This document shows positions 13,716 through 32,657 of a stretch of DNA of 33,814 nt, piece after piece. The position numbers and the translations under genes are program-made. The notes under the pieces are model-generated. The model was not told where the DNA came from. It made no database searches and saw nothing but the letters and a program-made list of their open reading frames with translations. Source of the DNA: Rubripirellula sp. (GTDB lineage: Bacteria; Planctomycetota; Planctomycetia; Pirellulales; Pirellulaceae); NCBI GenBank assembly GCA_012270065.1, contig JAAXJB010000010.1, forward strand, positions 1-33,814. The letters are read 5' to 3'. Every line of letters starts with the position of its first letter. Positions within the stretch are counted from its first letter, which is position 1.

Positions 13716-15140
13716 TCATTCCCGCAGACTGCCCGACTGTGTTTTTGCGACTTGCTTACGCACAACATCGACAATTCTCGCCTCGGAATCAGGATGCCAA
13801 ATCCCGGGCAGACCGTAATACACGTTTGATCCCCCACCCTCATAGCCTCCTTCGGCAAGCACCCTGCGCGATGGAATGTATGCCATGACATCATTTGCAT
13901 AAGCGGCGACCCATGTCTGATGTCCATTCAGTTCATCCTTCAAGCGTATCGCGTAATCAACTACGACTTCGCCACCAAGGTGAACAAAATCGACCTCACC
14001 ACCAAGTTCCCAAATCGCAATTGGGTAGGGATACGTGTCTGCAAGGGATCCGTCTGCCAACGTTCTCGTTTTCAATAATCTGGCACGTGATGCCTCATAG
14101 CGGTTGCTTGACTGTGCGGCCTGATTCAGTTCCAAGTCACCAGGAATCTCCTGTAGCTTCAAGTCTGTTTCTTCATACTGCGTGCGCAAGTCTGATTCGA
14201 GGATCGCCATCGGGCCAGCGAGAACCTCACCCACTGCTCTCGCAAGCTGATTGCCATAGTTCTTTGCCAACTCAACGGTGCGTCGCGGCAATGGGTTCTG
14301 ATCAGCACCACAACCCGCCCAGAACATGGCAGTGCATCCGGGATACATTTTTTCCAGCTCAAGCTGCGCATAACCCGGGTAATCGGCGTTCCACTGGCCA
14401 GCAGCCAAAGTCGTTGCGTGGCAGGCGTAACCAAACACTACGGCGACAAGTTTTCCGGAAAGATCACGCGCTGCAAGGACAGGCACATCATGATCAACTG
14501 GCCCCGACAATGTTCCCTTTGCCCGTTTTTCGGGCACAACATCATACGGCTTGTTTTCTCGCCGATTCACCGCGAACGTGGCTTTGCCACTCCCCCATTG
14601 AACACGCCCCGGCTGACAGGCATCGATCGCCATCCCAACAGCCGTCTCTATGTCGTCCACCAATCGGTCTGCATAGGCATCAATCCGCTTCTGTTGCAAC
14701 TCGTCGGCAAGCAGGTAATGCATTGGGGCCAGGTTCATCCCGACCACCGGGCCTGAATGGGTATGGCTGGTGAACAAGGCAATCTGCTGTCGCTTGAGCC
14801 CGAAAGAATGGTTCAAGCGTTTGCAGACCCGTTGCGAAACATCACGGCCGATCCCAACGAGATCCAGACAAATCATTACACCACGATTTGCTTCACCATC
14901 CTCCAGATACAGAACCTTGGCCCACAAGTCCGTATCTTTGTCGGTCGCGGGTTTCGTTCGGGACGCATAGCCTGCCATCATCAGCGGCTTGACAGGCGTG
15001 ATCACACGCCGCCCCGCACCGATCAACCACGATTCGCCGCCTGCATTTCCTTCCTGCCCAACAGCTGACGGTTCGCCCGAAGCCAGCATCAACGATGCCG
15101 CAAGCACCAAATTCACGATGAATCGTCCATCGCCTGTCAT
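13716..15140 (-). CDS. Neutral/alkaline ceramidase family protein, secreted
   Basis: The 474-residue protein has a signal peptide (MTGDGRFIVNLVLAASLML, cleavage near 27) and an N-terminal neutral-ceramidase-type domain. Likely zinc-binding motifs include SHTHSGPVV (about residue 125) and GYACHATTL (about 242). Bacterial and animal ceramidases cleave the amide bond of ceramide and have a GDVSPN motif holding the catalytic Ser. Here the equivalent segment reads AGCGADQNPLPRR, so that Ser appears to be missing and the reaction may differ. The protein is also shorter than true ceramidases (about 650-700 residues) and lacks their C-terminal domain. The frame runs open to 15308; the ATG at 15140 begins the signal peptide and has GGGGAG at a suitable distance. 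It converges with the cytochrome gene. Confidence 0.82.
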   Translation of the reverse strand: MTGDGRFIVNLVLAASLMLASGEPSAVGQEGNAGGESWLIGAGRRVITPVKPLMMAGYASRTKPATDKDTDLWAKVLYLEDGEANRGVMICLDLVGIGRDVSQRVCKRLNHSFGLKRQQIALFTSHTHSGPVVGMNLAPMHYLLADELQQKRIDAYADRLVDDIETAVGMAIDACQPGRVQWGSGKATFAVNRRENKPYDVVPEKRAKGTLSGPVDHDVPVLAARDLSGKLVAVVFGYACHATTLAAGQWNADYPGYAQLELEKMYPGCTAMFWAGCGADQNPLPRRTVELAKNYGNQLARAVGEVLAGPMAILESDLRTQYEETDLKLQEIPGDLELNQAAQSSNRYEASRARLLKTRTLADGSLADTYPYPIAIWELGGEVDFVHLGGEVVVDYAIRLKDELNGHQTWVAAYANDVMAYIPSRRVLAEGGYEGGGSNVYYGLPGIWHPDSEARIVDVVRKQVAKTQSGSLRE

Positions 15141-15472
15141 GCCAAGACTCCCCAACAAACTGAAAAACAAGATCAAAATCCGGCAACCGCTCGTGGCAGC
15201 AGCAACAGATTGTAACCCCTCCGTACTGGCATCGGTGCTAAAATCAAAGAGTTGATTGACAGTGACTCCTCTGATCGCAAACAGACACGCCATCGAAGAC
15301 CCTTTCATGGCGAGATCCCCGAGTTGACTTGAGATCGCTCATTGATTCCCTGCGAGCAATCGCATGTTGAGGAATGCAATTTGATAAAAACAGGTTTCCT
15401 GCTCACTTGGCAACAATCGCTCCCGTTTGTTGCGTCTCCTGCAGTCCCATTTCCCGGCCCAGGTAACGATTG
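15141..15472. other. Intergenic region between divergent genes
   Basis: About 330 bp separate the ceramidase-family gene (-) from the Cys-rich protein (+). It should hold both promoters, but I could not assign boxes with proper spacing. No repeat or hairpin stands out. Confidence 0.45.
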
Positions 15473-16279: not shown

Positions 16280-19200
16280 TCAAACCGAATTGGTCTTTCG
16301 ACCGTGAAACCACACAAGGGTCACAGCAAATGCCGCCAACAAAATGATCACAAAAGTTGAACTGGCGAACGGCAGACGCAAACGCGACTCAAAGTCCAAC
16401 TCCAGTTCGAGCGGTGCATTTTCTGCGACTTGAACGCTACGGCTGAACGTGTAAACCTGTCCCTCTTCGGGAAGACTGATCACGATCGCCTGCGGAGCAG
16501 GCTCAGTGGTTCTCTGATGCTGCACCAAACGTCCGGCAATGCGTTGCAGTGTTGCATTGTCTTCACTTGAGTTGCCTCGCAACAATTGACTCAATTCCTG
16601 GGGTTGAAAATTCAGTTGATCCTGTTGCAGGATCGGATTATCGGCAGCTGCCTGCCGCATCTGCTGATTATCGCCCAGTGCCATGTCTTCCCGATCATTG
16701 TCCAGAAAGAGTCTTTGGCGCCTTGTATTGAGTCCGACAATCGCTTGCTGGGTTTGCAGGTTTTCCAGCTGGATGCGAGCATCTTCGTTGGACGCGGCAT
16801 CCAGACCATACTGGTTTGCAACGCTATTGAGTGCCCAGTTTGCCTTGGTCTGCTCACCCTGCTGAATGAACTGGTTTGCCTGCTGCAATGTGATGGCCGC
16901 CTGTTCGGCTTTCATTTGTCGAGAACGATTCGTTTTGGACAGATAGGATTTCCGGTCATAGTCAGCCTGACTGGTACGGCCAACCAGTTCGAGGTTGCCA
17001 TCGTTGTCTGTCAACTCGAAGCCTTTTGGTGCGATCACACTCCAGTCAATATTTTCCAGTGGCACATTGAGCTGCGGACTTTCGAGCTTCAATTTCCCAA
17101 GGCTACTTCCGGGAACGGTATAAACAAACCGTACGCTGGCAGTTCGATCATCCATGCCCGGCAGGATGTAGAATTGCCACGCGTTTGTTTCTCCACCAAC
17201 GCGAATTGAATTGACGCTCTCTCCATTGACAAAGATGCTGAAAATTTCTCCGCCTTCAGGCAATCCGACGCTCAAACTGCTCCGCTGAATGACTTCCATG
17301 CTGACATCGACTGCCGTCAATTGATCACCTTTGGCCGACAACACCGTCAGCAGATTTCCGCTTGCAACTCGCAACTTGAGTGCATCAGCAAGCGAGTGCC
17401 GTGTCACATCGATTTCCAACGGAGCTGCAGACTTCTGCGCTCTGAGCGTCACAACAGGCGCGTTGCGATTCTCCGAATCACGCAAGATGGCTGGCACGGC
17501 GTTCCAATCAATTTTCTGCCATCCCTGCGGCATGGACTCAATGTCGATTTCCAGTCGTCCACCTGCACGGACGGCAAAATAGAATGGCAATTGACCCACT
17601 TGCGGAAATTCAGCCAATCGCAGGACTTCCGTCTCGTCGCTGCGATCTCCGCGACGTTCATACTCAATTCGAAAATCGACCTGGCCAAGCACTCTGCGTT
17701 TGAACTGTATCTCCCACAGATTCCTATCAGGATCGATACGGACAAGGTCACTCACGGTTTTTCCACTGGCTCGCAAAGTCTTGATCTCATCCTCGTTGTT
17801 GATGGGAAGGACAATTTGCAAAGCACGAATGGATGCATTCTGCACATTGAAACTTGCAACCAGTGACGAACGAGTCTGACCCTCGCGAACGATGGTCTCC
17901 TGAAGCACATTACCTGCAATGCGAGGGTCGAGTTTCTCGATTCCGAGCACGAGTTTCCAGTCTTTCTGCAAGAGTCGAAATGCCAAAGCACCAGGGGATT
18001 TTCCACCCATCGCTCTGGGATCCGTTTCGGAAACATTCTGTCGAGATAGCGTTCGGAGCTGGATTCCCGTGGTAGGCCGAACGACAAGTTCACCCGTCTG
18101 GCGAACTCCCTCATTCAATTCGAATCGGGGCAATTCCCAGTCGGCCACATTGTTGGGTGTATTTCCGGTCAAAGTCAGTGAAAAACTCTGCGGACCAATT
18201 GTTTTGCCATTGAGATGCAAAATGATCTGTCGCTGACCATCTTCACTCAATTCCGCCCAATGATGCAGAGAAGGTCCAGTGAGCGACTCAACCTCAAGCC
18301 CTGCAGGCAGAGGAAAGCTCAACTGGAACAGGCCCGCTCGTGAAATCTCCGCAGAAAAATTGACAGCCAGAACAACACGTTCATCCCCAAACGACAGAAC
18401 CTGATTACTGAGCACCCTGACTTCAGACGCGACCGGCGCGACACGTAATTCGACGGCGCCGCCCTTTGCACCATAGCGGTAGACGCGATGAAGAACGGCC
18501 TCCGGATTGGTATTCAAACTGAAATCGAAGTCTCCCACATTGACCGTTGACATTTCCTCTGGCTTCAGGGTTTCTGGCTGCGCATCGGGGCCAAAAGCGA
18601 TGGCAACCAATCCAACTTCCCCATCCGCATCTTCGACTCGCAATGGGGCCAATGTGACGTCTGCCGGCAGCGTCTCGACCCCACGCTGGGTCTCGATCGT
18701 GAGATTGAATGGCTTTGATTGTGCTGGTGTAACTTCAAGTTTCAGCCTGCCCTGATCTGCATCAAATTGCCATGACCCAACGGGTCCCCCCACATCACTC
18801 ACCGTCAATCCGGCTGGCACAAGAACGGTCAGTTCGCTGACCTGTCCCTGTGATGCACGAACATTCAGTTGATGCCGGCCATCGACAACCCCAGGCCCTG
18901 GCAGAAACAGATTGGAAGCCTCAACAAAAAACCGGGTATCTTCCATCGTGACATCGCGGGCTCTTGGCTTCAAAGTCACCAATCCCTGCCCGGGTCCAAG
19001 CAGCAATCGAGTTCTGGTTGCTTCCTGATTTTCTTCCCCAACCTGTTCGATCCTCACCGCTGTGGAACAATTCACATCCCAACCACCTTCGTCGTACGAA
19101 AGTTCAATTCTCTGCACGGCAGCATCGCCTGTTGGCACAGAGATGCCTTCCTTTGGCTTGACCGCTTCGATCTGAAATTCGAACTGGGCCTGATAAACCT

Positions 19201-22200
19201 GTTCTGTTGCAGTTACCTCCAATTTTTTATCCTCGGCATCAGCACCGCCATCTTCCTGCCTGGCAGGAATACTGATGATGTATCCCATTCCACCGCCGGG
19301 TAAAACAGTCTTCGTGAGCCGCAATCCCTCGCCTTCGAATCTGGTAAGCACTGCAGGTGATCGCAAAAGCAGAAATCGATCGCCCGGTTTACCAGACAAG
19401 ACCAGTTTCCCATTGCCGGAAAGCCGTTGGTCCAGATGGGTAATTTTCCAGGCCTGCTCAATGGAGTCAGCGGCGCGTATCGCAGCAGGTGCAGCGACGG
19501 CCTGCGCGACTGCCTGTTGCGCCACGGGTTCCTGAGCGATGGACGTTGAAAACCAGGGTGAAGACAGAAGAGCGAACAACAGAATCGTCGCCGTGACTGG
19601 ATTCGGTCCACCTTCTGGGCCCTCATCATCCGAAATTTCCAAAATATCCGCCGTGATGGGATCGGAGCTATCCGATGATTCATCACTCGGATCCAAATTG
19701 CTTCCAGCCAGGGCCCGCTTGCGTTCTTTCGCCAACTTTCGATTTTCCTTCAACGAGCGGAAACCATCCCAAGCCGCGCCCAAAAACAGGAACAGAAAAA
19801 TCACCGTTGCCAGCAACCAGAAGAACCAGACAGTACTATCCCGCTGCATCAGAACCGCTACAAAAACAAAAAACACTGCGCCCACACGCAATGGCGATCG
19901 GTAGTCTGCAAATCTGCTCATGAATGAGCAGATGAACGCGGCAACACTGGCAAGAAAAACAAGAATTCCGGAAGTTGACAGATTCACTTGCCATAGCGGG
20001 ATATTGTGCACATCCAGACGTACAGCATCGCCAGCGGAAAGAATTGGCAAACTCAGAATCAGCGGCGCGACTTCACCCACCTGTTGCGAAGCATCGACCG
20101 CAGCACTGCACGCAAAGTAAACTGCTGCTACGAGTGGTAAAATTCCAAGGTGCCGCCAACTTGCACCACTGCTTCGCAAGATCAAACCAACCACAGAAAG
20201 GAAAATGACCGCCAGCAGGGATGAAGTGCCACGACGAGCCAACCCATCAAAACCGGATGGCCTCAGGACAGGCACCGGTGGCTCCACCGTCCCACCAGCA
20301 GGGACAAGAACTCTTTGGTCATCTCCCCGGACATTCCACTCGGTTTTCAGCACTGGTGCAAAAACTGTCGGGAGCATCAACTCCGGGTGTGATTCGCTGA
20401 CCGTCGGTTTACCTAAACGCAAACGTACTTCAACGGGAATGCTTGGGTCGATTCCGCCTGGCAGCGGAATCAGTGTTTCATCGCCCGAACTTCGTGCGGT
20501 GACAGGTTCACCATTGACTGTGACTTCCCATAAACGGACAGGCTCGCTTGGAAGCTGAATACGAAGCGATCTTTCTCCCCGCGACTTGACATAGTAGAGA
20601 ACCTCTGTGACCAGCTCACCGTCACGGGAAACACGACTTTCTGCCTCAGAGAATTCGATCACCTGACTGACCGTCGTTCCGGGTTGAAACCATTTGACTT
20701 TCAAACTCAGATTGAAGGGACGTTCCGTGTATTGCCAGGTGCCAAGCGGCGGCGCTGTACTCAGAAGCCTGAACTCTGCTGGCAGTTCCAGGGGATCAAG
20801 CACGAGCATTCCATCAGAGATGGATACGGTCTCGCTTTCAACCTGCATGGGGCTGACAATCTGGATGTACCCCCGCTCTCCCTGGACGCCCAATGGTGCC
20901 ACCTGACCCGGAGCAAAAGTTCCGTCAGACTCGCTGGGTTTTTCCTCAAAAGTGACGAGCAGAGTGTAGGGTCCCATCACAGGCTGGTGCAGGGACACGA
21001 TCAAGGTATCTCCATCTCGACGTGAATCCTGCACATTCTGCCCATCGACAACTTCGTTCTTCAAATTTTCTGGAAGCGTGATCCGCAACTCGGAAATCGG
21101 CGCCCCTGTGATGAAAAAGTTGATCAGGGCACTTCCATAAATCGTTTCCTGACTCAATGAATAGAGATGGAACACATCACTCTGAATACTGCGATCAAGC
21201 AGTTCGACCTTCATGGTCGCTGACCAATCCGGCTCCCTGATCCTGAATGCCTGCTGAAGATTGGGAGTTGGCTTGGGGAAGTAGGACAGGGGTTTTTCAA
21301 CAAGTAAATCTGTTGACTGGACGGTAAGCCGGAAACCGGGAGCGCCAATGATACCGATGTCGCCACGCACAGCTTTGGCTTCGGGATGCTCAATACGTGG
21401 CAAGATCCAATCACCTGCTGCAGCCGGTTCACTTTTCTCAAGATGCAAACTGACCAGTTGTCGACCGGAGATATCCTTTGTGAAAATTGTCTTCAGGTTA
21501 CGAAAACCATCGACAACTTCACTCGCTGCAAGGTAATCCGCAACACTGGCACCGCTGACAGAGACCACTGAATAATCCGAGGGGATCATGAAATTCCACT
21601 CACGGATGGGAGCCTCACGAATATCGAGTTCAATGTCAGCATGGATCATGCGGTCGGTTTCCGCCAACTGATACAACAGCAACTCGGAAACGCTCACCTC
21701 AGGTTGAATGCGGTCAGCCGCCACGGTGAACGCATGAGAGGCAGCCGGAAAACGGTAAACGTAAACCTGCCGTGCCTGAAGTGCGTCACCCGGAAACTGT
21801 TCTGGCGACAACTGGGTGAGCCCAGCGAGTCCTGTCGGTTCCAAACGAACAGAACCGAGATTTGCCAAGCGAACAAATCCGGAGTGACGAATCGTGCCCA
21901 CCGGCTCCAAACGCAAACCTTCGACGCGTACCGGAAAAGCACCAAGAGGAGTCTGGCTGCGCACATTCAGTTGGGCGTTTTCAGTAATGGGCTGACTGAG
22001 CGTCACATCCAATTGTCGCTGGCCGTCGTTGTCACTTACCTTCCAGGCAACGATGTTGTCACCCTTGACATCAAGAATCTCACCGGGGCCCTGCAGAACC
22101 ATGCTCAACGACCGTAACTCCCCCTGCAGGACCTGATAATTCAAGCGATGATCCTGCCGCAACAACCCAGACCCGACACGTGCCTCGATGATCCCAGTGG

Positions 22201-23410
22201 TTGTGAAAAACAGCTTGCCTTCTCCTGCCATCCGTTTCGGTTTCCATGTCAAGCGAACACGTCCACTGGCTGGCAAAAAACCGATCCATGCGTTTTCTTT
22301 CCACAAGGGAACAACGGATTCCTGGTCACGATGAAACAGAATCTGTTCATCGAGTCCCTGCAGATTGACTGGCACAACAGCACCAGACGCAATGGTGAAG
22401 TCAATGTTCTTTTGGCTACCAGCCGAAGTTTCGATTTTTGCAATAAAATCCAATTGGATGGCAAATTCCCCTGGCCTGGGAAACCGGATTTTATAGACCG
22501 TCTGTTTCCCGGATCTGGAAAGCCGTACCTGGTAGTCATCACTCTCCGGAACCTGGACAAGTGCAGCACGCCCACTCAGCAGGGTCAACTCGGTATTGGG
22601 ATCAGCAACGTTGGCCGTTGTCGTCAACTGGAACGCAACCGACTGGCCATCGCGATCGACTGTCCCACGCAGTGCTGTTTCCAGCAACTCCACCGGATCA
22701 GGCGACGCACTGTCACGCATCAAGGACAAACTGATCTTCCCGCCGGTGGACGTCTGAAAACTACCGCCATCTCTTTTACCGGAAAGCAGCACAAAACCTT
22801 CAACCGCTTTCAAGGTTCCACTAACACCAGGTCCATATTTAAACGTCACTCTGGAATCAAATCCAACACTTGCACCAGGCCCAAGATGAGTGAGGTTCAT
22901 GGTGGCAGGCAAACGGTATTCTGGAGACCGGATCTGGACAACAGGCTTCAAGTCTGTCGCTCCCTCTTTGAGTTGCAAATCCAGAAACCTCTCATTACCA
23001 CTTTGTCGGACTGACCACGAAGCGATTCCATCACCGGTGACGTTGGTTACCTGGCCATTGCCGATCAGACCGAAGCTCAAAGTTTCCGGTATTCCCTGAA
23101 CGACCTTGATTTCCAACATGACATTCTGGTCGATCTTTTGACGGCCCACAGTCGCATTGGCAATTGCTTTGGCACTGTAGAAAACCGGAGGTGGAGGTGG
23201 AGGTGTCCGAGACTCCAAAACAAGCGTTCGCACGCTACCCTGGTCCAACGATTCATCTTTCTGTGCGTCATTTTCCTGCGCGCTGACATGTGCCCCGCCA
23301 GCAAATGCAAGACAGGTCATCACAATCATCAACGGCAGATGCAACCCCCTGCACATTCCAAATGCAAAGGGCAGGTCACATTTCCTGTTTGGATAGGCCT
23401 GATTTCTCAT
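16280..23410 (-). CDS. Giant two-module membrane protein of unknown function
   Basis: The 2376-residue protein begins with a signal peptide (hydrophobic core LPLMIVMTCLAFAGGAHVSA) and a Pro run, then about 950 beta-rich residues predicted outside the cytoplasm. A bundle of four or five membrane segments follows at about 1062-1210, then an acidic loop (DESSDSSDP). A signal-peptide-like segment ending FSTSIAQEP lies near 1285, before a second beta-rich region (about 1320-2160), a Gln-rich probable coiled coil (about 2190-2260) and a final membrane helix (about 2347-2370). The two beta-rich regions are homologous: DWILPRIE/DWELPRFE, AFRIREPDW/AFRLLQKDW and FVNGESV/TVNGEPV occur in the same order about 1085 residues apart. 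I recognise no enzymatic motif. It starts 187 bp after the VWA gene on the same strand. The frame extends upstream only through a TTG at 23506; the ATG at 23410 is chosen, and 23356 is an alternative. Confidence 0.8.
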   Translation of the reverse strand: MRNQAYPNRKCDLPFAFGMCRGLHLPLMIVMTCLAFAGGAHVSAQENDAQKDESLDQGSVRTLVLESRTPPPPPPVFYSAKAIANATVGRQKIDQNVMLEIKVVQGIPETLSFGLIGNGQVTNVTGDGIASWSVRQSGNERFLDLQLKEGATDLKPVVQIRSPEYRLPATMNLTHLGPGASVGFDSRVTFKYGPGVSGTLKAVEGFVLLSGKRDGGSFQTSTGGKISLSLMRDSASPDPVELLETALRGTVDRDGQSVAFQLTTTANVADPNTELTLLSGRAALVQVPESDDYQVRLSRSGKQTVYKIRFPRPGEFAIQLDFIAKIETSAGSQKNIDFTIASGAVVPVNLQGLDEQILFHRDQESVVPLWKENAWIGFLPASGRVRLTWKPKRMAGEGKLFFTTTGIIEARVGSGLLRQDHRLNYQVLQGELRSLSMVLQGPGEILDVKGDNIVAWKVSDNDGQRQLDVTLSQPITENAQLNVRSQTPLGAFPVRVEGLRLEPVGTIRHSGFVRLANLGSVRLEPTGLAGLTQLSPEQFPGDALQARQVYVYRFPAASHAFTVAADRIQPEVSVSELLLYQLAETDRMIHADIELDIREAPIREWNFMIPSDYSVVSVSGASVADYLAASEVVDGFRNLKTIFTKDISGRQLVSLHLEKSEPAAAGDWILPRIEHPEAKAVRGDIGIIGAPGFRLTVQSTDLLVEKPLSYFPKPTPNLQQAFRIREPDWSATMKVELLDRSIQSDVFHLYSLSQETIYGSALINFFITGAPISELRITLPENLKNEVVDGQNVQDSRRDGDTLIVSLHQPVMGPYTLLVTFEEKPSESDGTFAPGQVAPLGVQGERGYIQIVSPMQVESETVSISDGMLVLDPLELPAEFRLLSTAPPLGTWQYTERPFNLSLKVKWFQPGTTVSQVIEFSEAESRVSRDGELVTEVLYYVKSRGERSLRIQLPSEPVRLWEVTVNGEPVTARSSGDETLIPLPGGIDPSIPVEVRLRLGKPTVSESHPELMLPTVFAPVLKTEWNVRGDDQRVLVPAGGTVEPPVPVLRPSGFDGLARRGTSSLLAVIFLSVVGLILRSSGASWRHLGILPLVAAVYFACSAAVDASQQVGEVAPLILSLPILSAGDAVRLDVHNIPLWQVNLSTSGILVFLASVAAFICSFMSRFADYRSPLRVGAVFFVFVAVLMQRDSTVWFFWLLATVIFLFLFLGAAWDGFRSLKENRKLAKERKRALAGSNLDPSDESSDSSDPITADILEISDDEGPEGGPNPVTATILLFALLSSPWFSTSIAQEPVAQQAVAQAVAAPAAIRAADSIEQAWKITHLDQRLSGNGKLVLSGKPGDRFLLLRSPAVLTRFEGEGLRLTKTVLPGGGMGYIISIPARQEDGGADAEDKKLEVTATEQVYQAQFEFQIEAVKPKEGISVPTGDAAVQRIELSYDEGGWDVNCSTAVRIEQVGEENQEATRTRLLLGPGQGLVTLKPRARDVTMEDTRFFVEASNLFLPGPGVVDGRHQLNVRASQGQVSELTVLVPAGLTVSDVGGPVGSWQFDADQGRLKLEVTPAQSKPFNLTIETQRGVETLPADVTLAPLRVEDADGEVGLVAIAFGPDAQPETLKPEEMSTVNVGDFDFSLNTNPEAVLHRVYRYGAKGGAVELRVAPVASEVRVLSNQVLSFGDERVVLAVNFSAEISRAGLFQLSFPLPAGLEVESLTGPSLHHWAELSEDGQRQIILHLNGKTIGPQSFSLTLTGNTPNNVADWELPRFELNEGVRQTGELVVRPTTGIQLRTLSRQNVSETDPRAMGGKSPGALAFRLLQKDWKLVLGIEKLDPRIAGNVLQETIVREGQTRSSLVASFNVQNASIRALQIVLPINNEDEIKTLRASGKTVSDLVRIDPDRNLWEIQFKRRVLGQVDFRIEYERRGDRSDETEVLRLAEFPQVGQLPFYFAVRAGGRLEIDIESMPQGWQKIDWNAVPAILRDSENRNAPVVTLRAQKSAAPLEIDVTRHSLADALKLRVASGNLLTVLSAKGDQLTAVDVSMEVIQRSSLSVGLPEGGEIFSIFVNGESVNSIRVGGETNAWQFYILPGMDDRTASVRFVYTVPGSSLGKLKLESPQLNVPLENIDWSVIAPKGFELTDNDGNLELVGRTSQADYDRKSYLSKTNRSRQMKAEQAAITLQQANQFIQQGEQTKANWALNSVANQYGLDAASNEDARIQLENLQTQQAIVGLNTRRQRLFLDNDREDMALGDNQQMRQAAADNPILQQDQLNFQPQELSQLLRGNSSEDNATLQRIAGRLVQHQRTTEPAPQAIVISLPEEGQVYTFSRSVQVAENAPLELELDFESRLRLPFASSTFVIILLAAFAVTLVWFHGRKTNSV

Positions 23411-23597
23411 TGAATCGCTCTGAATTCCCAAGGTTGATTTACGACATGTTGTGTTCAAATGCATCATCCAGAATCGTTGGATTTTTCCCGCAAATGCATC
23501 TCGCAATCAGTGCCAGATGCATTCAGTTTTGATTTTACGCAGCCCCTCATGCCATCGATGTAACGTGGATGTAACAGCAAACATGAAAGTTTGCATC

Positions 23598-25904
23598 TCA
23601 CTCTCCGTTGATTTGCCTCGCTTGCCGGATCATCAATTCCAGCTTTCGGATCTGCAGGTTATCGCGGTTCCTTTGTGGCAAGCTCGCAAGAATACTGGCA
23701 AGTTCCTTCAGATCGATCACGTCGGCCATGCTTCCTCCTTTCAGCTTTGCAGCGAAGAGTGAGGCCGCTGTCGCAACCTTCATCGATGGGGCAGCAAGGT
23801 CCGCACGGGGCGCACCCGCCTCAAAGGGGATTGGCCAGATCTCTTCGACCATGCGTCCGGATTCCAGATCCCGAAAACGCACTGACACCGTGCCTATGTC
23901 TCCATAGCCATCGGGTTTGACCTGCACCTGATACAGGGCAACGCCGGCCTCCGCGGCGGCCATCTCCGCTGCATCAACTGCATCATTTCTGAAATCTTCT
24001 TTTTTCAGGCGGTGCTTTTCGAAACCCAGCAGCTTGTACTTCCCAACACGCTGGGGATTGAACTCGACCTGAATCTTGACGTTCTTGGCTGCTGGTCGCA
24101 GTGCTCCCGCGATCTGTTTCGCGAAACCATCATTAACCGATTCCAACGAATCCAAAAGGTAATACCGCCCGTCTCCTTTTCTGGTCAACGCTTCAAGAAT
24201 CTCATCATTGAGTCCGTCAGCACTGATACCAGCAGCATCAAAAGCAATCCCACGGTCACGCATTTTGATGATCATGTCAGCCAGTCGCTCGGGACTGGCA
24301 TCCCCGAGATTGACGGCGCCATCCGTCAACAGAATGATCCGATTCTGTGCATTCTCGTGATACTGTTCCAGAGCTTTTTCGAAGGCCAACCCCAGCGCAG
24401 ACTCAAGGTTCGTCCCCCCTTCACTCGGCAAATTGTCGATCGCCTGCAGCAAAGACTCTGCCGCCTTGCCACTCACCCGATCTGCCAGCAATCGCGGCTG
24501 TCGGGCAAAGCTGATCAGCGTGACCTGATCCATCGGCTGCAGTTGTTGCGTCAAAACAGCAAAGGCTCTCCTGACCGTCTGCTGCCGGTCAATACGCTCC
24601 ATGGAACCCGAATTGTCCAGCAGAAATGTCAGCTTGAGCGGCGTAGTGCTTGCACGCCCGGCTGCTGCCGTTCGCATCGCAACACGCACCAGATTTCGTT
24701 GTTGGAGAAAAGGATGAATCGACTGCTCCACTCGGCAAGAGACTCGCTCATCCTGAGTCGGCATCGGATCACCATAATCGAATGCATTGAGAAACTCTTC
24801 GCTTCGGATCCGGCTCGCATCTGGCCATTCACCTTGAGCCAAAGCAGCCTGCGCCAACTTGAACGACACATCGCTTACATGCAACGAGAACGTTGAAAAA
24901 CCATCGACACTGGCATCCATTTCGGGGAACCCGTCCGGAACAGCTGAGCGACTGCTCCGCTTTCGACCTCGTAACGAAAGCTCTCTGTCCTTCGCAAAAT
25001 CACGTTCCAATGCATCTCTGGAGTTGAAAGTATCCGAATCAGCCAGTCTGCCGGGAGCCAACTGGTCGACCGCGCCGTCATCTTCCTCCAACTCTTCGAC
25101 AAGCCCATCATTCAAGCCCGGACCGGAAAGCCGATTCAGCAAACCCTGAGCGAGTTTTTTTTCACGCATTGGAAGACGCTGCTGCGCAGGCCCGCCGATG
25201 GGCTTGCCCTTGATTGCGTTTCCTTCGACTCGCACATCCAGTCCCCCGAGATCATGCCCATCAGCATCACGCCCATTAGCACCAAATCGGCCGGTGGGAT
25301 TCTCCATCACACCGGGACCAGGACCATTGACAGCGGCTGCAGGTTGGCTGAGAGCTGGCACTCCGCTCGTTGGCCCCGAACCACTCACTTCCCCCCTCAC
25401 CGTTGCGTTCGCCCTGTTGGCATTGGCAGCAAACGGGTCTGCTGAAGACGTTTTCTTCTTGGCAGACTCCAAACGTTTCAGGCTTTCCACTTCAGAGTTT
25501 TTATCACCGGCAAAACCTCCAGACTGCTGTTGACCCTGTTGCTGCATCTGACGTGACTGCACATCACCAAACGTATCTGCAAACAAATCATCGCTGGGGG
25601 CATCAGCGGCATCCTCGTTACTGATGCCCAGCATCTCACCGCCCAAATTCCCCTTCAGATTCCCATTCGCGTTCAGATCCGTGATGGCTCCGTCGCTGAA
25701 ACCACCACCGCCACCCATTCCTCCCATTCCACCTCCGCCCATGCCTCCCATTCCACCGCTGCCCATGCCACCGCCACGTTGGTTAAATCGATCTTCGAGT
25801 CGACCACCAGCGACATCCGCTCCCTCAATGGAATCTAGCTGGAAATTTTCTTCTACCTCGACAGCCTTTCCCAAACTCCCATCTGCGCCACTCTGGCATT
25901 GCAT
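23598..25904 (-). CDS. YfbK-type von Willebrand factor A domain protein
   Basis: The 768-residue frame has a low-complexity first third, including a Gly/Met-rich run (about 43-68). The planctomycete/YfbK-type VWA architecture follows: an N-terminal VWA-associated region from FSTFSLHVSDVSF (about 336), the VWA domain itself, and a C-terminal YfbK-like domain (about 600-768). The metal-ion-dependent adhesion site is intact, with DNSGSM near 430 and LLTDGAVNLGD near 525. VWA domains bind protein partners through a divalent metal. This frame lacks its own signal peptide, and its first ATG has GGGAG directly abutting it, which is too close for normal initiation. The frame is open upstream to about 25972 and lies in the -1 frame relative to the preceding gene, so it may be the continuation of that protein or be translationally coupled to it. 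Confidence 0.85.
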   Translation of the reverse strand: MQCQSGADGSLGKAVEVEENFQLDSIEGADVAGGRLEDRFNQRGGGMGSGGMGGMGGGGMGGMGGGGGFSDGAITDLNANGNLKGNLGGEMLGISNEDAADAPSDDLFADTFGDVQSRQMQQQGQQQSGGFAGDKNSEVESLKRLESAKKKTSSADPFAANANRANATVRGEVSGSGPTSGVPALSQPAAAVNGPGPGVMENPTGRFGANGRDADGHDLGGLDVRVEGNAIKGKPIGGPAQQRLPMREKKLAQGLLNRLSGPGLNDGLVEELEEDDGAVDQLAPGRLADSDTFNSRDALERDFAKDRELSLRGRKRSSRSAVPDGFPEMDASVDGFSTFSLHVSDVSFKLAQAALAQGEWPDASRIRSEEFLNAFDYGDPMPTQDERVSCRVEQSIHPFLQQRNLVRVAMRTAAAGRASTTPLKLTFLLDNSGSMERIDRQQTVRRAFAVLTQQLQPMDQVTLISFARQPRLLADRVSGKAAESLLQAIDNLPSEGGTNLESALGLAFEKALEQYHENAQNRIILLTDGAVNLGDASPERLADMIIKMRDRGIAFDAAGISADGLNDEILEALTRKGDGRYYLLDSLESVNDGFAKQIAGALRPAAKNVKIQVEFNPQRVGKYKLLGFEKHRLKKEDFRNDAVDAAEMAAAEAGVALYQVQVKPDGYGDIGTVSVRFRDLESGRMVEEIWPIPFEAGAPRADLAAPSMKVATAASLFAAKLKGGSMADVIDLKELASILASLPQRNRDNLQIRKLELMIRQARQINGE
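25695..25785 (-). repeat. Gly/Met-rich coding repeat in the VWA protein
   Basis: Imperfect repeats of codons for Gly-Gly-Met and Gly-Met-Gly-Gly produce a flexible stretch such as GGMGGMGGGGMGGMGG. It lies in the linker between the membrane-anchored upstream region and the VWA domain and probably serves as a disordered tether. Confidence 0.75.
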
Positions 25905-27151
25905 CTCCCGACATACAACGGACTTGTCGGTGGAATCGTTGGTGCGGGTGGCAACGCCGGTTTGCCGGGAACCTCACTCGCACTGCGGGGACTGACTGAC
26001 TGAGTAACAGGTGGCTGGGCGCCTGAACGATTCAAACCGAGTGCTCTTGATTCGGATTGCATTCTGCTTCCCGAACGTGTTGAATCCCGCTTGCTGTCGA
26101 AAGCCTGCTCAATTTCTTCCTTCTCATAGTCCTGAGCACGCTCTCCGAGTGCTTTTCTGGCATCTTCCAACGCCAAATTTTCGGAAAGGCTATCGATTGC
26201 TCCGGACTTGCTCATCGCGGATGACCGTTCGGCCTTTGCATCTGACTCTCTCCCCACATCAACGCCCCGGTCCATGCTCCGGTACGCGTTCCCGCTAACG
26301 CCCTGATCCATCCCCATCCCCATGTTGACGCCAAGCTCAACGGGATTCGCTACTTCGGCCATTTCGGAAAAAATCTCTGAATCTGTCTCCGCACTATCGA
26401 AGAGTCTTTCCGTGCCCGTCGCGTGCCACTGTTCATCCATGTCACCAGACTCATCACTTGGCGCTGAGTCCTCAAACATGGGGGCAGCAGACCTGGGGGC
26501 AGCAGACGCGGATGTAGGCGACCTCATCACCGCAGAGTCCACCATTGCCTGACTGCTTGTTACAACGAAACCCCGCGAATTCATGTACCAGAATCCCGAC
26601 AGCCCCAGAACCAGCAACAACGAGGCTGCTATTCCCGATACCCAATGATAATTCCGGGTGACCGACCTGAACTGTCCTGGCAACCTGCCCCACAAACCAG
26701 CAAACCCGCCGCCAGCAAACCCGCCGCCAGCAAACCCGCTGCCAGCAAACCTGCTTCCGGCCCTGACAGAACGGGAGCCTGGATGACCCAACAGACTTTC
26801 GCTACCAACATCAGCAAGTGAAATCGGGTCGGTTGGGACTTGATCGTCGAATAGAGCGAGGACATCTGCCCTTTTGTCCTGACTTAATTTCCAATCATCA
26901 CCGCAAACATCGGTGTTGCCTGACACAATCGCATCATCACCCTCCGCAACCAATGGCACACCACCAGCAGCATGACCAAGCAATCCGTGCATCTCCTGCA
27001 TCTGATTCTTGAATTCACGCACATCACTGCGCTCTTCAATCAAACGCTCGATTTCCTCTCTTTCAAAGTCCGAAGCTTCACCCAACAGAAATGCAACAAT
27101 ACGAACTTCGAGTTCTGCAGAAAGCCCCTCTGGAGCCGGTTCATTGTTCAT
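25853..27151 (-). CDS. Membrane-anchored putative anti-sigma protein, possibly N-terminal half of the VWA protein
   Basis: The 432-residue frame starts MNNEPAPEGLSAELEVRIVA and its helical N-terminal domain (about 8-60, with FLLGEASDFEREEIERLIEE) looks like the cytoplasmic part of anti-sigma proteins, though no zinc-binding HxxxCxxC is seen. A FAGGG pentapeptide repeat (about 132-151) and one membrane helix follow (about 170-190, ASLLLVLGLSGFWYM). A long low-complexity extracytoplasmic linker ends in a Pro-rich stretch (PALPPAPTIPPTSPLYVG). Its ATG overlaps the stop codon of the sigma factor gene as ATGA, a sign of translational coupling. It ends at 25853, 52 bp inside the next frame. In related planctomycetes I recall an anti-sigma-like N-terminus and VWA domain in a single protein, so this frame and the next may be one gene broken by a frameshift. 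Assignment as an anti-sigma factor rests mainly on position. Confidence 0.72.
   Translation of the reverse strand: MNNEPAPEGLSAELEVRIVAFLLGEASDFEREEIERLIEERSDVREFKNQMQEMHGLLGHAAGGVPLVAEGDDAIVSGNTDVCGDDWKLSQDKRADVLALFDDQVPTDPISLADVGSESLLGHPGSRSVRAGSRFAGSGFAGGGFAGGGFAGLWGRLPGQFRSVTRNYHWVSGIAASLLLVLGLSGFWYMNSRGFVVTSSQAMVDSAVMRSPTSASAAPRSAAPMFEDSAPSDESGDMDEQWHATGTERLFDSAETDSEIFSEMAEVANPVELGVNMGMGMDQGVSGNAYRSMDRGVDVGRESDAKAERSSAMSKSGAIDSLSENLALEDARKALGERAQDYEKEEIEQAFDSKRDSTRSGSRMQSESRALGLNRSGAQPPVTQSVSPRSASEVPGKPALPPAPTIPPTSPLYVGRCNARVAQMGVWERLSR
26697..26756 (-). repeat. Coding tandem repeat, four copies of a 15-bp unit
   Basis: On the plus strand the units CCAGCAAACCCGCCG lie at 26697-26711, 26712-26726, 26727-26741 and 26742-26756; the first two are identical, the third has one change and the fourth three. 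On the coding strand they give Phe-Ala-Gly-Gly-Gly-type pentapeptides just before the membrane helix. Copy number may vary without breaking the frame. Confidence 0.92.
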
Positions 27152-27705
27152 GAATTCACGTCCATCCCGAGTGGATGCAACTTGCCAGCCAACTCTTTGA
27201 GTATGTGGTGCAAACGATACCCGACATTACCGACACTCAACCCGGTCTTTTCACTGATCTCGCGATACTTCAAACCGTCAAAAAACTTCAATTGAACCAG
27301 TCTGCGATCCTCTTCATGAAGCGAGTCGATTGTTTCATGAAGGATCTGAATTGTTTCCAGCCTGGACAAAACCCCCGGAGGAGCGTCCGAGCTATTGCCC
27401 AGGCTCTCGATCAGCGGAGTGGTCATTTCCACTGCTTCTTCACGTCGGTTGTCACGCATGTAGTTGAACACCCTGTTACGAACACTGCGATAAAGCCATG
27501 CACGCGGAGACTCAACCTCATCCCACCTGACATGCAACTGCAGAAAGACTTCCTGCACTATCTCTTCTGCTACCGCTTTTCTTCGAACCAGAGAGAATGC
27601 ATACCGCAACAGGGGCGTCTCTTCAGACTCAAACAGCGAGCGCAGTGTCCCGCGGTCGGGGCACTTGTCGCTTGCCGGTAAAACTCGGGGATTCCGATGC
27701 AACAT
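27148..27705 (-). CDS. ECF-type RNA polymerase sigma factor
   Basis: The 185-residue protein is a sigma-70 family, extracytoplasmic-function (ECF) sigma factor with only regions 2 and 4. Region 2 spans about 22-90, with LLRYAFSLVRRKAVAEEIVQ, VFLQL and PRAWLYRSVRNRVFNYMRD. Region 4 spans about 115-175 and contains a helix-turn-helix: YREISEKTGLSVGNVGYRLH. ECF factors redirect RNA polymerase to a small set of promoters and are usually held inactive by a membrane anti-sigma partner, which fits the next gene, overlapping by ATGA. AGGAT at 27709-27713 is a ribosome binding site well placed for the ATG at 27705. It is the first gene of the minus-strand block, and autoregulation is likely by analogy. 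Confidence 0.93.
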   Translation of the reverse strand: MLHRNPRVLPASDKCPDRGTLRSLFESEETPLLRYAFSLVRRKAVAEEIVQEVFLQLHVRWDEVESPRAWLYRSVRNRVFNYMRDNRREEAVEMTTPLIESLGNSSDAPPGVLSRLETIQILHETIDSLHEEDRRLVQLKFFDGLKYREISEKTGLSVGNVGYRLHHILKELAGKLHPLGMDVNS

Positions 27706-28326
27706 GAATCCTGTTGGCAGTGTCAGTGGAGTTTCACTTACGGGGAAGATCCTCTCGCTACATGAGAAGACCCGAACGACGACGACTTATTAGAAAAATC
27801 CGTGTTTTTTTCTCAAAAGAAACCATCATGGGAAGCTGGATCCCTCCTGATCAGTCAGAAAGAACACAGACCGGCGTCCAATGAATCGGGCGGTGGGAAT
27901 CAAGAAAACAGGCCCTCTGAACGACTCACTGCTGCATCATCCAAACCATTGGTACCAGCATAGTCACAAACGCACCGCGTGATGACACCGAGGATCGAAA
28001 AAACGGCACCGGCTTCCCCAGTGGTCCTTCCGGAAGCCCAACTGTCAATGCCGAAGCAGTCGTCACCATTTTCTGCGACCAGCACCCGCATCGCTGCTTT
28101 GACCAATTGAACTCCAATTGGTTGACCAGAATAATCCGGAAGGACGCAATTTTCTGGCACATGATCCCGACTGAGGCCCCACCCTGACTCCGATGGACAA
28201 GTCCTGCATTCAACAGGCCAACAACATTTTCAGATAAACTGTCAGAACAGCGCCAACGGCAGGAATGCCGGCTGACCTGAACGTGCGGCATTCAATTTCC
28301 CTCAACTCTCCTGTGAATAAGACACC
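27706..28326. other. Intergenic region between divergent genes
   Basis: This 621-bp gap separates the sigma factor block (-) from the GDSL hydrolase (+). It should contain the promoter of the sigma operon. Two overlapping minus-strand open frames (27900-28160 and 27926-28291) have no recognisable domain or good ribosome binding site and are not called. An A/T-rich patch lies at 27786-27825. I could not assign a promoter with confidence. Confidence 0.5.
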
Positions 28327-31349: not shown

Positions 31350-32588
31350 CTACTGATTAAGTTGCTCTTCGATAACTTCTTTGCTTGCTCGTGTACCCAT
31401 GGCACCCCAGAGACCGTAAGGGCTCTTGGAACCAGCACGTTGTCCCCAGTAGTAAACCGACTGAGCACGTGAGTCACCAGCCTCGATGGAGTCAGTGATG
31501 AAGATCACAGCACCGTCGCCCATCAGGACGTGTGCTCCACCTTGGTGCCGGCTACTTGGAGGCATGGTTCCCTCGCCACCCCATGTCCACCACATGCAAA
31601 GCTCCTTGTTAGGAGGCAAGATGGTGTTCATCTGGGAGTTGAGTGGGAAACTGTTCGCCCACATGAAACCACGACCAGCAAAGGAAGGACCAACGGAAAC
31701 TCCCTGAGCCCATTTGGTGGGGTACTCGGGATCCATCTTGCCGTTATCACGACACAGTGATGGATTGTCTGCGATTCCATAGTAAGCATCGTCAGCACCG
31801 ATGGTTCGGATATCCCGGTCACCGAGGTCCGTTGCGATCTCGCCAGCCATCACGGTGTTGGCAAGTCCATCAAGACAGTCACGGAACTTGGTCACCGAGC
31901 GGTGAGCGAACATTCCACGCTCAGCAGCGCGGGTGTAGTTCACCTTGAATGCACTCGGGCGAGGATTCAAGTTGTAGTGAGGAACACCGGTGTGACTCCA
32001 GTTGTGCGAGTCACCCATGCAAGCGGCGTAGTTCGTACGACCACCGGCAGGAAGACCTTGACCCGGATCACTTGGGCAACGCAGAGTTGGGATCTCTGTC
32101 ATCCATGGGCGATAACGACGGTTCTGGATGGAATCCGGATTTCCGCCTGTGCGATACAAGCTTGGAGTCGGTCCCATCGCGGGCCATGGTCCACCGTTGA
32201 GTCCGACAAATGGAGTGTTTGGATTATCCAAGTCGAACTGGCTGGGATTGGAAATTTCTTCCCAAAGAGCCTGCTGCTCCATGAATGGCAGAATGCCGAC
32301 GATGAAGCTCAACGATTGATTGTTGCGGACAGAACTGTTGTGAGCGTAGTGTCCAGGAACGATCAACTCACCTGTGCCGGCACCCTGAGTGGGCATCTGC
32401 TTGTAGGTCGAGTGATAGTTGTGGATCGCAAGCCCGATCTGCTTGAAATTGTTGCTGCAGCTCATGCGGCGGGCAGCTTCGCGAGCAGCCTGCACAGCGG
32501 GAAGCAGCAAGCCGACCAAGACCCCGATGATCGCAATGACCACGAGGAGCTCGACCAGCGTGAAGCCGGAGCGAGAACTTTTTCTCAT
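31350..32588 (-). CDS. DUF1559 protein with type IV pilin-like N-terminus
   Basis: The 412-residue protein belongs to the planctomycete DUF1559 family. It starts MRKSSRSGFTLVELLVV, a prepilin leader with cleavage before Phe in SGFTLVELLVVIAII and one hydrophobic helix, as in type II secretion or type IV pseudopilins. LLLPAVQAAREAARRMSC, the family signature, follows, with the large DUF1559 domain continuing to QLNQ at the end. GDGAVIFI near the C-terminus is typical. It probably assembles into a surface pilin-like structure or sits in the inner membrane facing the periplasm. Many paralogues per genome are usual in planctomycetes. An upstream ATG at 32600 is in frame, but GGGG lies about six bases before the ATG at 32588, which is preferred. 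It follows the small lipoprotein gene by 69 bp and probably shares its promoter. Confidence 0.93.
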   Translation of the reverse strand: MRKSSRSGFTLVELLVVIAIIGVLVGLLLPAVQAAREAARRMSCSNNFKQIGLAIHNYHSTYKQMPTQGAGTGELIVPGHYAHNSSVRNNQSLSFIVGILPFMEQQALWEEISNPSQFDLDNPNTPFVGLNGGPWPAMGPTPSLYRTGGNPDSIQNRRYRPWMTEIPTLRCPSDPGQGLPAGGRTNYAACMGDSHNWSHTGVPHYNLNPRPSAFKVNYTRAAERGMFAHRSVTKFRDCLDGLANTVMAGEIATDLGDRDIRTIGADDAYYGIADNPSLCRDNGKMDPEYPTKWAQGVSVGPSFAGRGFMWANSFPLNSQMNTILPPNKELCMWWTWGGEGTMPPSSRHQGGAHVLMGDGAVIFITDSIEAGDSRAQSVYYWGQRAGSKSPYGLWGAMGTRASKEVIEEQLNQ

Positions 32589-32657
32589 ACTAATCCCCAT
32601 TAATAATTAAACAAAAACGAAAACAAAAATCGACAAACGGATGTCGACAAAGGGTAT

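Follow-up and report, generated by a model that had tools for sequence, protein, structure and literature searches.

Switches built from an ECF sigma factor and an anti-sigma factor are known, and the described systems closest to the present locus are the ECF/class I anti-sigma pairs of the RskA/SigK and RsiW/SigW type. As in those pairs, a small sigma factor with regions r2 and r4 was found to be followed by a protein with one probable transmembrane (TM) segment and an anti-sigma-like N-terminus, in an operon that is possibly autoregulated. Unlike in those pairs, the predicted exoplasmic part is a VWA/YfbK region placed after a long low-complexity linker, and the gene of a giant protein follows. 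E. coli YfbK is a lipoprotein that is not known to have a sigma-linked N-terminus or a TM segment. The C-terminal half of the second protein resembles the YfbK family in that the Pfam domains vWF_A, VWA and YfbK_C all scored above the cut-off, which confirmed the YfbK-type VWA identity proposed in the initial annotation, but its VWA region is fused to a sigma-linked N-terminus and a TM segment. A VWA-bearing anti-sigma factor tied to a giant scaffold would be a new form of such a switch. Among the literature matches listed (titles and starts of abstracts), neither an ECF/VWA anti-sigma pair nor a study of the giant was present, and an earlier description within an ECF classification is possible; in the part of PMC12826043 that concerns VWA genes, these belong to another cluster.

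The window (the whole stretch of DNA analysed, 33,814 nucleotides) comes from an assembly of 7 Mb in 122 contigs. It carries a unit of three genes, all on the minus strand, running from the ECF sigma factor through a probable anti-sigma/TM/VWA-YfbK fusion to the giant (Table 1). A scan of the window for consensus sigma-70 promoters and terminators gave results at or below the shuffle level, a search against Rfam gave no match and a tRNA scan found none.

Table 1. Features of the three-gene block and their positions in the window
Feature	Position	Strand	Details
Promoter-like motif CTAATAA-N13-GGGTCTT upstream of the sigma gene	27767-27793	minus	
ECF sigma factor	27148-27705	minus	185 aa; Pfam Sigma70_r2 1e-12, r4_2 1e-13
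Fusion gene, broken by a frame break: anti-sigma-like N-terminus, TM, low-complexity linker, VWA/YfbK	23598-27151	minus	Single ORF in 50 named relatives
N-terminal half of the fusion gene	25853-27151	minus	432 aa; anti-sigma-like domain ~residues 1-105, probable TM 170-188, linker
Frame break (approximate)	25853-25930	minus	tblastn of an intact relative changes frame there
C-terminal half of the fusion gene	23598-25904	minus	768 aa; vWF_A, VWA with intact MIDAS-type motifs, YfbK_C (Pfam)
Giant ORF from an alternative TTG start a few codons upstream, 2408 aa	16280-23506	minus	
Giant membrane-anchored protein, 2376 aa from the ATG at 23410	16280-23410	minus	
Giant ectodomain A, all-beta	20252-23233	minus	AF2 model, Foldseek
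Giant hydrophobic segments between the modules, ~residues 1065-1212, then K/R-rich linker	19775-20218	minus	Hydropathy scan
Giant ectodomain B: all-beta, helical region, C-terminal TM	16283-19474	minus	AF2 model, hhalign to module A

Four ordered genes on one strand had been described in the initial annotation. The order, the strand and the small gaps or overlaps were upheld: the sigma ORF and the N-terminal fusion ORF overlap by 4 bases, and the gap between the VWA ORF and the giant ORF is 91 bases, or 187 if the giant starts at the ATG, the start which also gives the 2376 residues originally reported. The sigma factor has the ECF composition, with only r2 and r4, both above the Pfam cut-off, and a length of 185 aa against about 190, in agreement with the original assignment; it was 52-83% identical to the 12 other sigma factors in the alignment. 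The gene count had to be lowered to three, as the two middle ORFs, which overlap by 52 bases (25853-25904) in different frames, correspond to one gene. When 20 stretches and 68 named loci were searched by ORF and by profile, the N-terminal domain and the VWA core fell within one ORF in 50/50 of the named loci with the sigma factor and both parts. The intact fusion was 911-1525 aa long in these relatives, and same-genus VWA homologues had an open frame of 889-1263 aa in ten genomes without a contig-end cut. When the fusion protein of a relative was aligned to the window by tblastn, its frame changed at the junction of the middle ORFs.

This assembly does show two ORFs, which might be read as two real proteins produced by a lineage-specific split, one of them a free, unexported VWA protein. 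Such a split is very improbable, given the single ORF of the 50 relatives. The VWA half has no hydrophobic segment fit for export or anchoring, either as a TM or as a signal peptide (best 19-residue hydropathy 1.1, judged by hydropathy only). Its C-terminal two-thirds was 77-81% identical to the nearest relatives, compared with 79-81% for the giant and 81-83% for the sigma factor, so that no decay of the VWA half was apparent. As both halves of the fusion are as conserved as the neighbouring genes, the break is either an assembly or sequencing error or a real, recent mutation. The four-gene reading of the block was rejected on the basis of the single fusion ORF, and a programmed frameshift was rejected by reasoning that the relatives are in frame. 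A second apparent frame break, near the end of the VWA region, was observed at one other locus (L128).

The fusion gene adjoins the ECF gene, and its product carries a probable TM segment, judged by hydropathy only. The anti-sigma-like character of the N-terminus, also proposed in the initial annotation, was supported through paralogues and not by a direct match. The N-terminus encoded in the window gave no significant match to an anti-sigma Pfam family, and zf-HC2 matched the first 231 residues of only 2 of 51 fusion members, at an E value of 0.12 or worse. The fusion N-terminus matched the N-termini of 11 paralogous VWA proteins with an E value of 3e-12 in a single pairwise hhalign comparison, and a sigma factor was seen beside 8 of these 11 proteins. 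When five paralogue N-termini were tested, one matched zf-HC2 at 1.7e-4 (22.1 bits, cut-off 22.2) and RskA_N at 0.005; of the other four, three matched zf-HC2 at 0.13-0.3 and one was without an anti-sigma match. Unlike the zinc class I anti-sigma factors, the window N-terminus has no Hx3Cx2C motif. Non-zinc class I anti-sigma domains exist, and in the relevant part of PMC7406223 about 44% of the class I domains are without the zinc motif. Family resemblance and position together suggest that the fusion N-terminus probably holds the sigma factor at the membrane. In some of the VWA proteins linked to a sigma factor, the TM segment resembled the one at the N-terminus of pilin-like DUF1559 proteins: PF07596 (DUF1559) matched 3 of 51 fusion members (best 1.2e-6), and the likeness in L065 was noted by eye. 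A true DUF1559 protein with an N-methylation motif is encoded at 31350-32600 of the window.

The giant protein had no Pfam match above threshold, and searches of NCBIfam and PDB sequences were also without result. By hydropathy only, a signal peptide-like start is followed by the first ectodomain, a hydrophobic cluster, a K/R-rich linker that is probably cytoplasmic, a second ectodomain and a C-terminal TM. Module B aligned with module A by hhalign at E 2e-29 across 759 columns, which marks the two as homologues, and they are separate genes in L097, L122 and L123, with gaps of 159, 59 and 285 bases, respectively. In these split giants each gene has a signal-peptide-like start, and the product of the first gene finishes in a K/R-rich tail that follows the TM cluster. 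The giant is thus predicted to consist of two exported modules with their ectodomains outside the inner membrane, anchored by the central TM cluster and the C-terminal TM. AlphaFold2 models, built from 53-row alignments, presented both modules as chains of beta-sandwiches, with helices at the end of module B; the mean pLDDT was 85 for each, and the pTM values (0.39 for A, 0.42 for B) make the arrangement of the domains unsure. The best Foldseek match of both modules was Ost1/ribophorin I (E 6e-9 and 2e-9, probability 1.00), and further matches were mainly to integrin alpha chains and M1 aminopeptidases; for ribophorin I and the M1 N-domains the identity was ~8-14% and the TM-scores were 0.1-0.3. 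Although the modules resemble Ost1/ribophorin I and M1 aminopeptidase N-domains in fold, the giant did not match ribophorin I in Pfam or in a PDB profile search, and the low TM-scores and the lack of sequence similarity mark the likeness as a fold resemblance and not as family membership. M1 aminopeptidases are characterised by an HExxH zinc motif and a GxMEN motif. HExxH occurred in 1 of 69 giant ORFs (L130 only) and G[AP]MEN in none of the 69; M1-type catalysis by the giant was rejected on the missing zinc-peptidase motif.

The reading preferred here, for which the chances are about even, is that of a self-contained, autoregulated ECF envelope switch, in which the giant is the main output and probably also the partner that the VWA domain meters. 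The N-terminus of the anti-sigma/VWA fusion would tether the sigma factor to the membrane. The fusion would cross the membrane by one probable TM segment and present its VWA domain on the other side, and the giant would extend both of its beta-sandwich chains outside the inner membrane. If the VWA domain lost or changed its exoplasmic partner, most simply the giant or an envelope structure that the giant builds, the sigma factor would be released and would transcribe its own promoter. Sigma factor, inhibitor and giant would then rise together until the partner of the VWA domain was restored; being raised with the other two, the giant would be chiefly the output of the switch and probably also the quantity that it meters. 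Anti-sigma action, autoregulation, the topology and the two roles of the giant are all what we infer for this locus.

The conservation of the gene order was assessed in 68 loci, which came from scanning named genomes with the giant alignment and were picked up through two short peptides of the giant; this sample therefore favours close giants, and it includes near-copies (e.g. L095, L107 and L132) and some repeats of L069-L083. The VWA gene was directly upstream of the giant in 61/68 loci, and the sigma gene lay beyond it in 50/68. In every remaining locus, 18 for the sigma factor and 7 of these also for VWA, the contig stops within or immediately upstream of the giant, or within the VWA gene; these loci were left out of the respective counts. 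Of the 50 complete loci, 37 showed the 4-base overlap between the sigma and fusion genes. No fourth conserved neighbour was detected: the commonest flanking cluster occurred in only 19/69 loci, on either side and on both strands, and a fourth operon member was rejected for this reason. The loci came from Planctomycetota and Verrucomicrobiota, including Stieleria, Rhodopirellula, Aporhodopirellula, Neorhodopirellula, many Pirellulaceae bins, Haloferula rosea and other Verrucomicrobiota. A strong giant match was present in 17 of 22 genomes of the same genus, and giant relatives occurred in 62 of 241 genomes of the family (16 of 68 genera), mostly with one match per genome. The giant was in split pieces in G017, G071, G123 and G144, and module B is covered by each of two matches in G228, which means that this genome does not have the giant as a single copy. 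In a tree of 39 giants, made by a quick method and with long branches flagged, one branch parted Planctomycetota from Verrucomicrobiota. The tree is compatible with both old inheritance and one transfer.

The metal-site motifs of the VWA domain (DxSGSM, GGTN and TDG) were kept in 63/63 VWA cores, that of the window included, and this domain is predicted from the sequence to face the side of the membrane opposite to the N-terminus. Other planctomycete pairs of a sigma factor and a VWA/YfbK protein (C58, L058, L061, L062, L063, L065, L067 and L068) share with the window a VWA/YfbK core behind an anti-sigma-like N-terminus and an adjoining sigma gene, but their VWA cores were only ~30-35% identical to that of the window and no giant match lay in their 1.5-kb flanks. 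In a wider set, the other VWA/YfbK proteins of the order, a sigma factor was beside 9 of 16 loci with 1.5-kb flanks (L059 being a weak match) and a giant beside 0/16. The same genome contains a second such pair (C58:6052-8520), 33% and 32% identical to the sigma factor and VWA/YfbK protein of the window, with no giant match beside it in stretch L002, which ends inside the VWA gene. Giant-like proteins at ~20-25% identity were found in 7 of 60 genomes, mostly as pairs of ~1.2k and 2.6k aa, and the planctomycete pairs (L085-L088 and L182, and L180 in part) shared profile-detectable giant modules and TM clusters, perhaps with three modules in all, judged by length. No sigma or VWA profile match was detected near them in 8 stretches from 7 genomes (L085-L088 and L180-L183, with one further G030 site left out); L085 begins inside its first gene, which hides its upstream side, and in L181 the giant profile itself was below threshold. 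The proposal that the block forms one unit across planctomycete genomes was accordingly borne out for close homologues and not for the remote relatives.

These observations might indicate that the VWA anti-sigma factor senses an unrelated cue, such as envelope stress or a protease signal, and that the giant is only an envelope-strengthening effector which makes no contact with the VWA domain: sigma-linked VWA paralogues occur with no giant in their short flanks, and remote giants occur with no detected sigma factor or VWA. This is quite unlikely, as all 15 VWA matches at 54-81% identity adjoin a giant or a contig end, with the next best at no more than ~40%. The distances between VWA cores and giants also correlated better (0.95) than those between sigma factors and giants (0.79; 43 loci), although shared ancestry would also yield correlated distances, and the short length of the sigma factor by itself lowers its correlation. 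The remote relatives also count against the envelope switch with the giant as output; they imply that the giant superfamily is not there only to feed a sigma factor, and they speak against a giant that serves solely as its sensor.

Upstream of the sigma gene, the pattern CTAAKAA-N13-NN[GT]TC recurred; a relaxed form was present in 34 of 56 upstream regions and absent in 22, including 9 of the 13 whose records carry Verrucomicrobia in the title, a result that speaks against the preferred reading. The pair CTAA/GTCT was the best 4-mer pair, in 27/56 regions, compared with at most 6 for any pair in mononucleotide shuffles performed three times. In the genome of the window, the strict form CTAAKAA-N13-GNGTCTT had one exact match, at this operon, and one more with one mismatch, against 18 matches for reversed controls at up to one mismatch. 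The same form gave 11 matches in 9 of the 22 genus genomes, 9 at the operon and 2 elsewhere, with 8 in the controls. In the 241 family genomes the stricter CTAAKAA-N13-GGGTCWT gave 19 matches, 13 at the operon and 6 elsewhere, with 36 for the reversed control (summed from the table). By these counts, the strict site is near-exclusive to this operon. The strict scan would miss weaker sites elsewhere, as it misses many of the operon's own promoters: the pattern was found in 9 of the 22 genus genomes and the giant in 17, so many of these promoters deviate, and other targets may do likewise. One exact match (L167, G003:C1:2820928) lay ~190 bases upstream of an ORF that by eye resembled a winged-helix regulator; the next ORF, also judged by eye, was ABC-ATPase-like. 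This match may be due to chance.

It is established that the regulon of an ECF sigma factor frequently extends beyond the operon that encodes it. This leaves room for classical surface sensing, the role suggested in the initial annotation, in which the giant would be the receptor for a ligand or a mechanical load and would signal through the VWA domain, with the sigma factor running a wider regulon from promoters too loose to be seen. The strict co-occurrence of sigma factor, VWA protein and giant is concordant with such a role, and large exposed chains of beta-sandwiches would suit ligand binding. We regard it as unlikely, since the strict motif elsewhere did not exceed the control level (for strict sites only) and no extra neighbour gene is conserved. 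A strict motif that is near-exclusive to the operon suits a giant that is chiefly made by the switch no less well than one that signals to the VWA domain. A stronger form of the preferred switch, in which the sigma factor is private to its operon, a VWA domain meters a giant of ribophorin I-like domains in a closed loop, and the giant belongs to a new PVC superfamily of envelope scaffolds that also occurs free of sigma factors, appears somewhat unlikely.

Through this operon, a giant family that is so far uncharacterised becomes accessible from a defined starting point; it is carried by cultured planctomycetes (Stieleria, Rhodopirellula and Neorhodopirellula) and by the cultured verrucomicrobium H. 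rosea. If the loop is closed, sigma activity would report the state of the giant, and the envelope role of the giant would be testable by promoter fusion; if the sigma factor is private as well, one operon would carry sensor, switch and structure together. VWA domains are put forward here as exoplasmic parts of anti-sigma factors, a subject with no study among the literature matches listed.

The genome also encodes, at C101:6355-6834, a VWA-containing open frame of 3153 aa which is unrelated to the block and was matched by frames of 3099-3182 aa in six same-genus genomes. Elsewhere in the window, an FHA domain and an EAL domain are joined in one ORF (222-1385), a 967-aa protein carries a type I dockerin domain (6518-9421), and a neutral/alkaline ceramidase-like protein is encoded at 13716-15308, ~1 kb past the 3' end of the giant gene.
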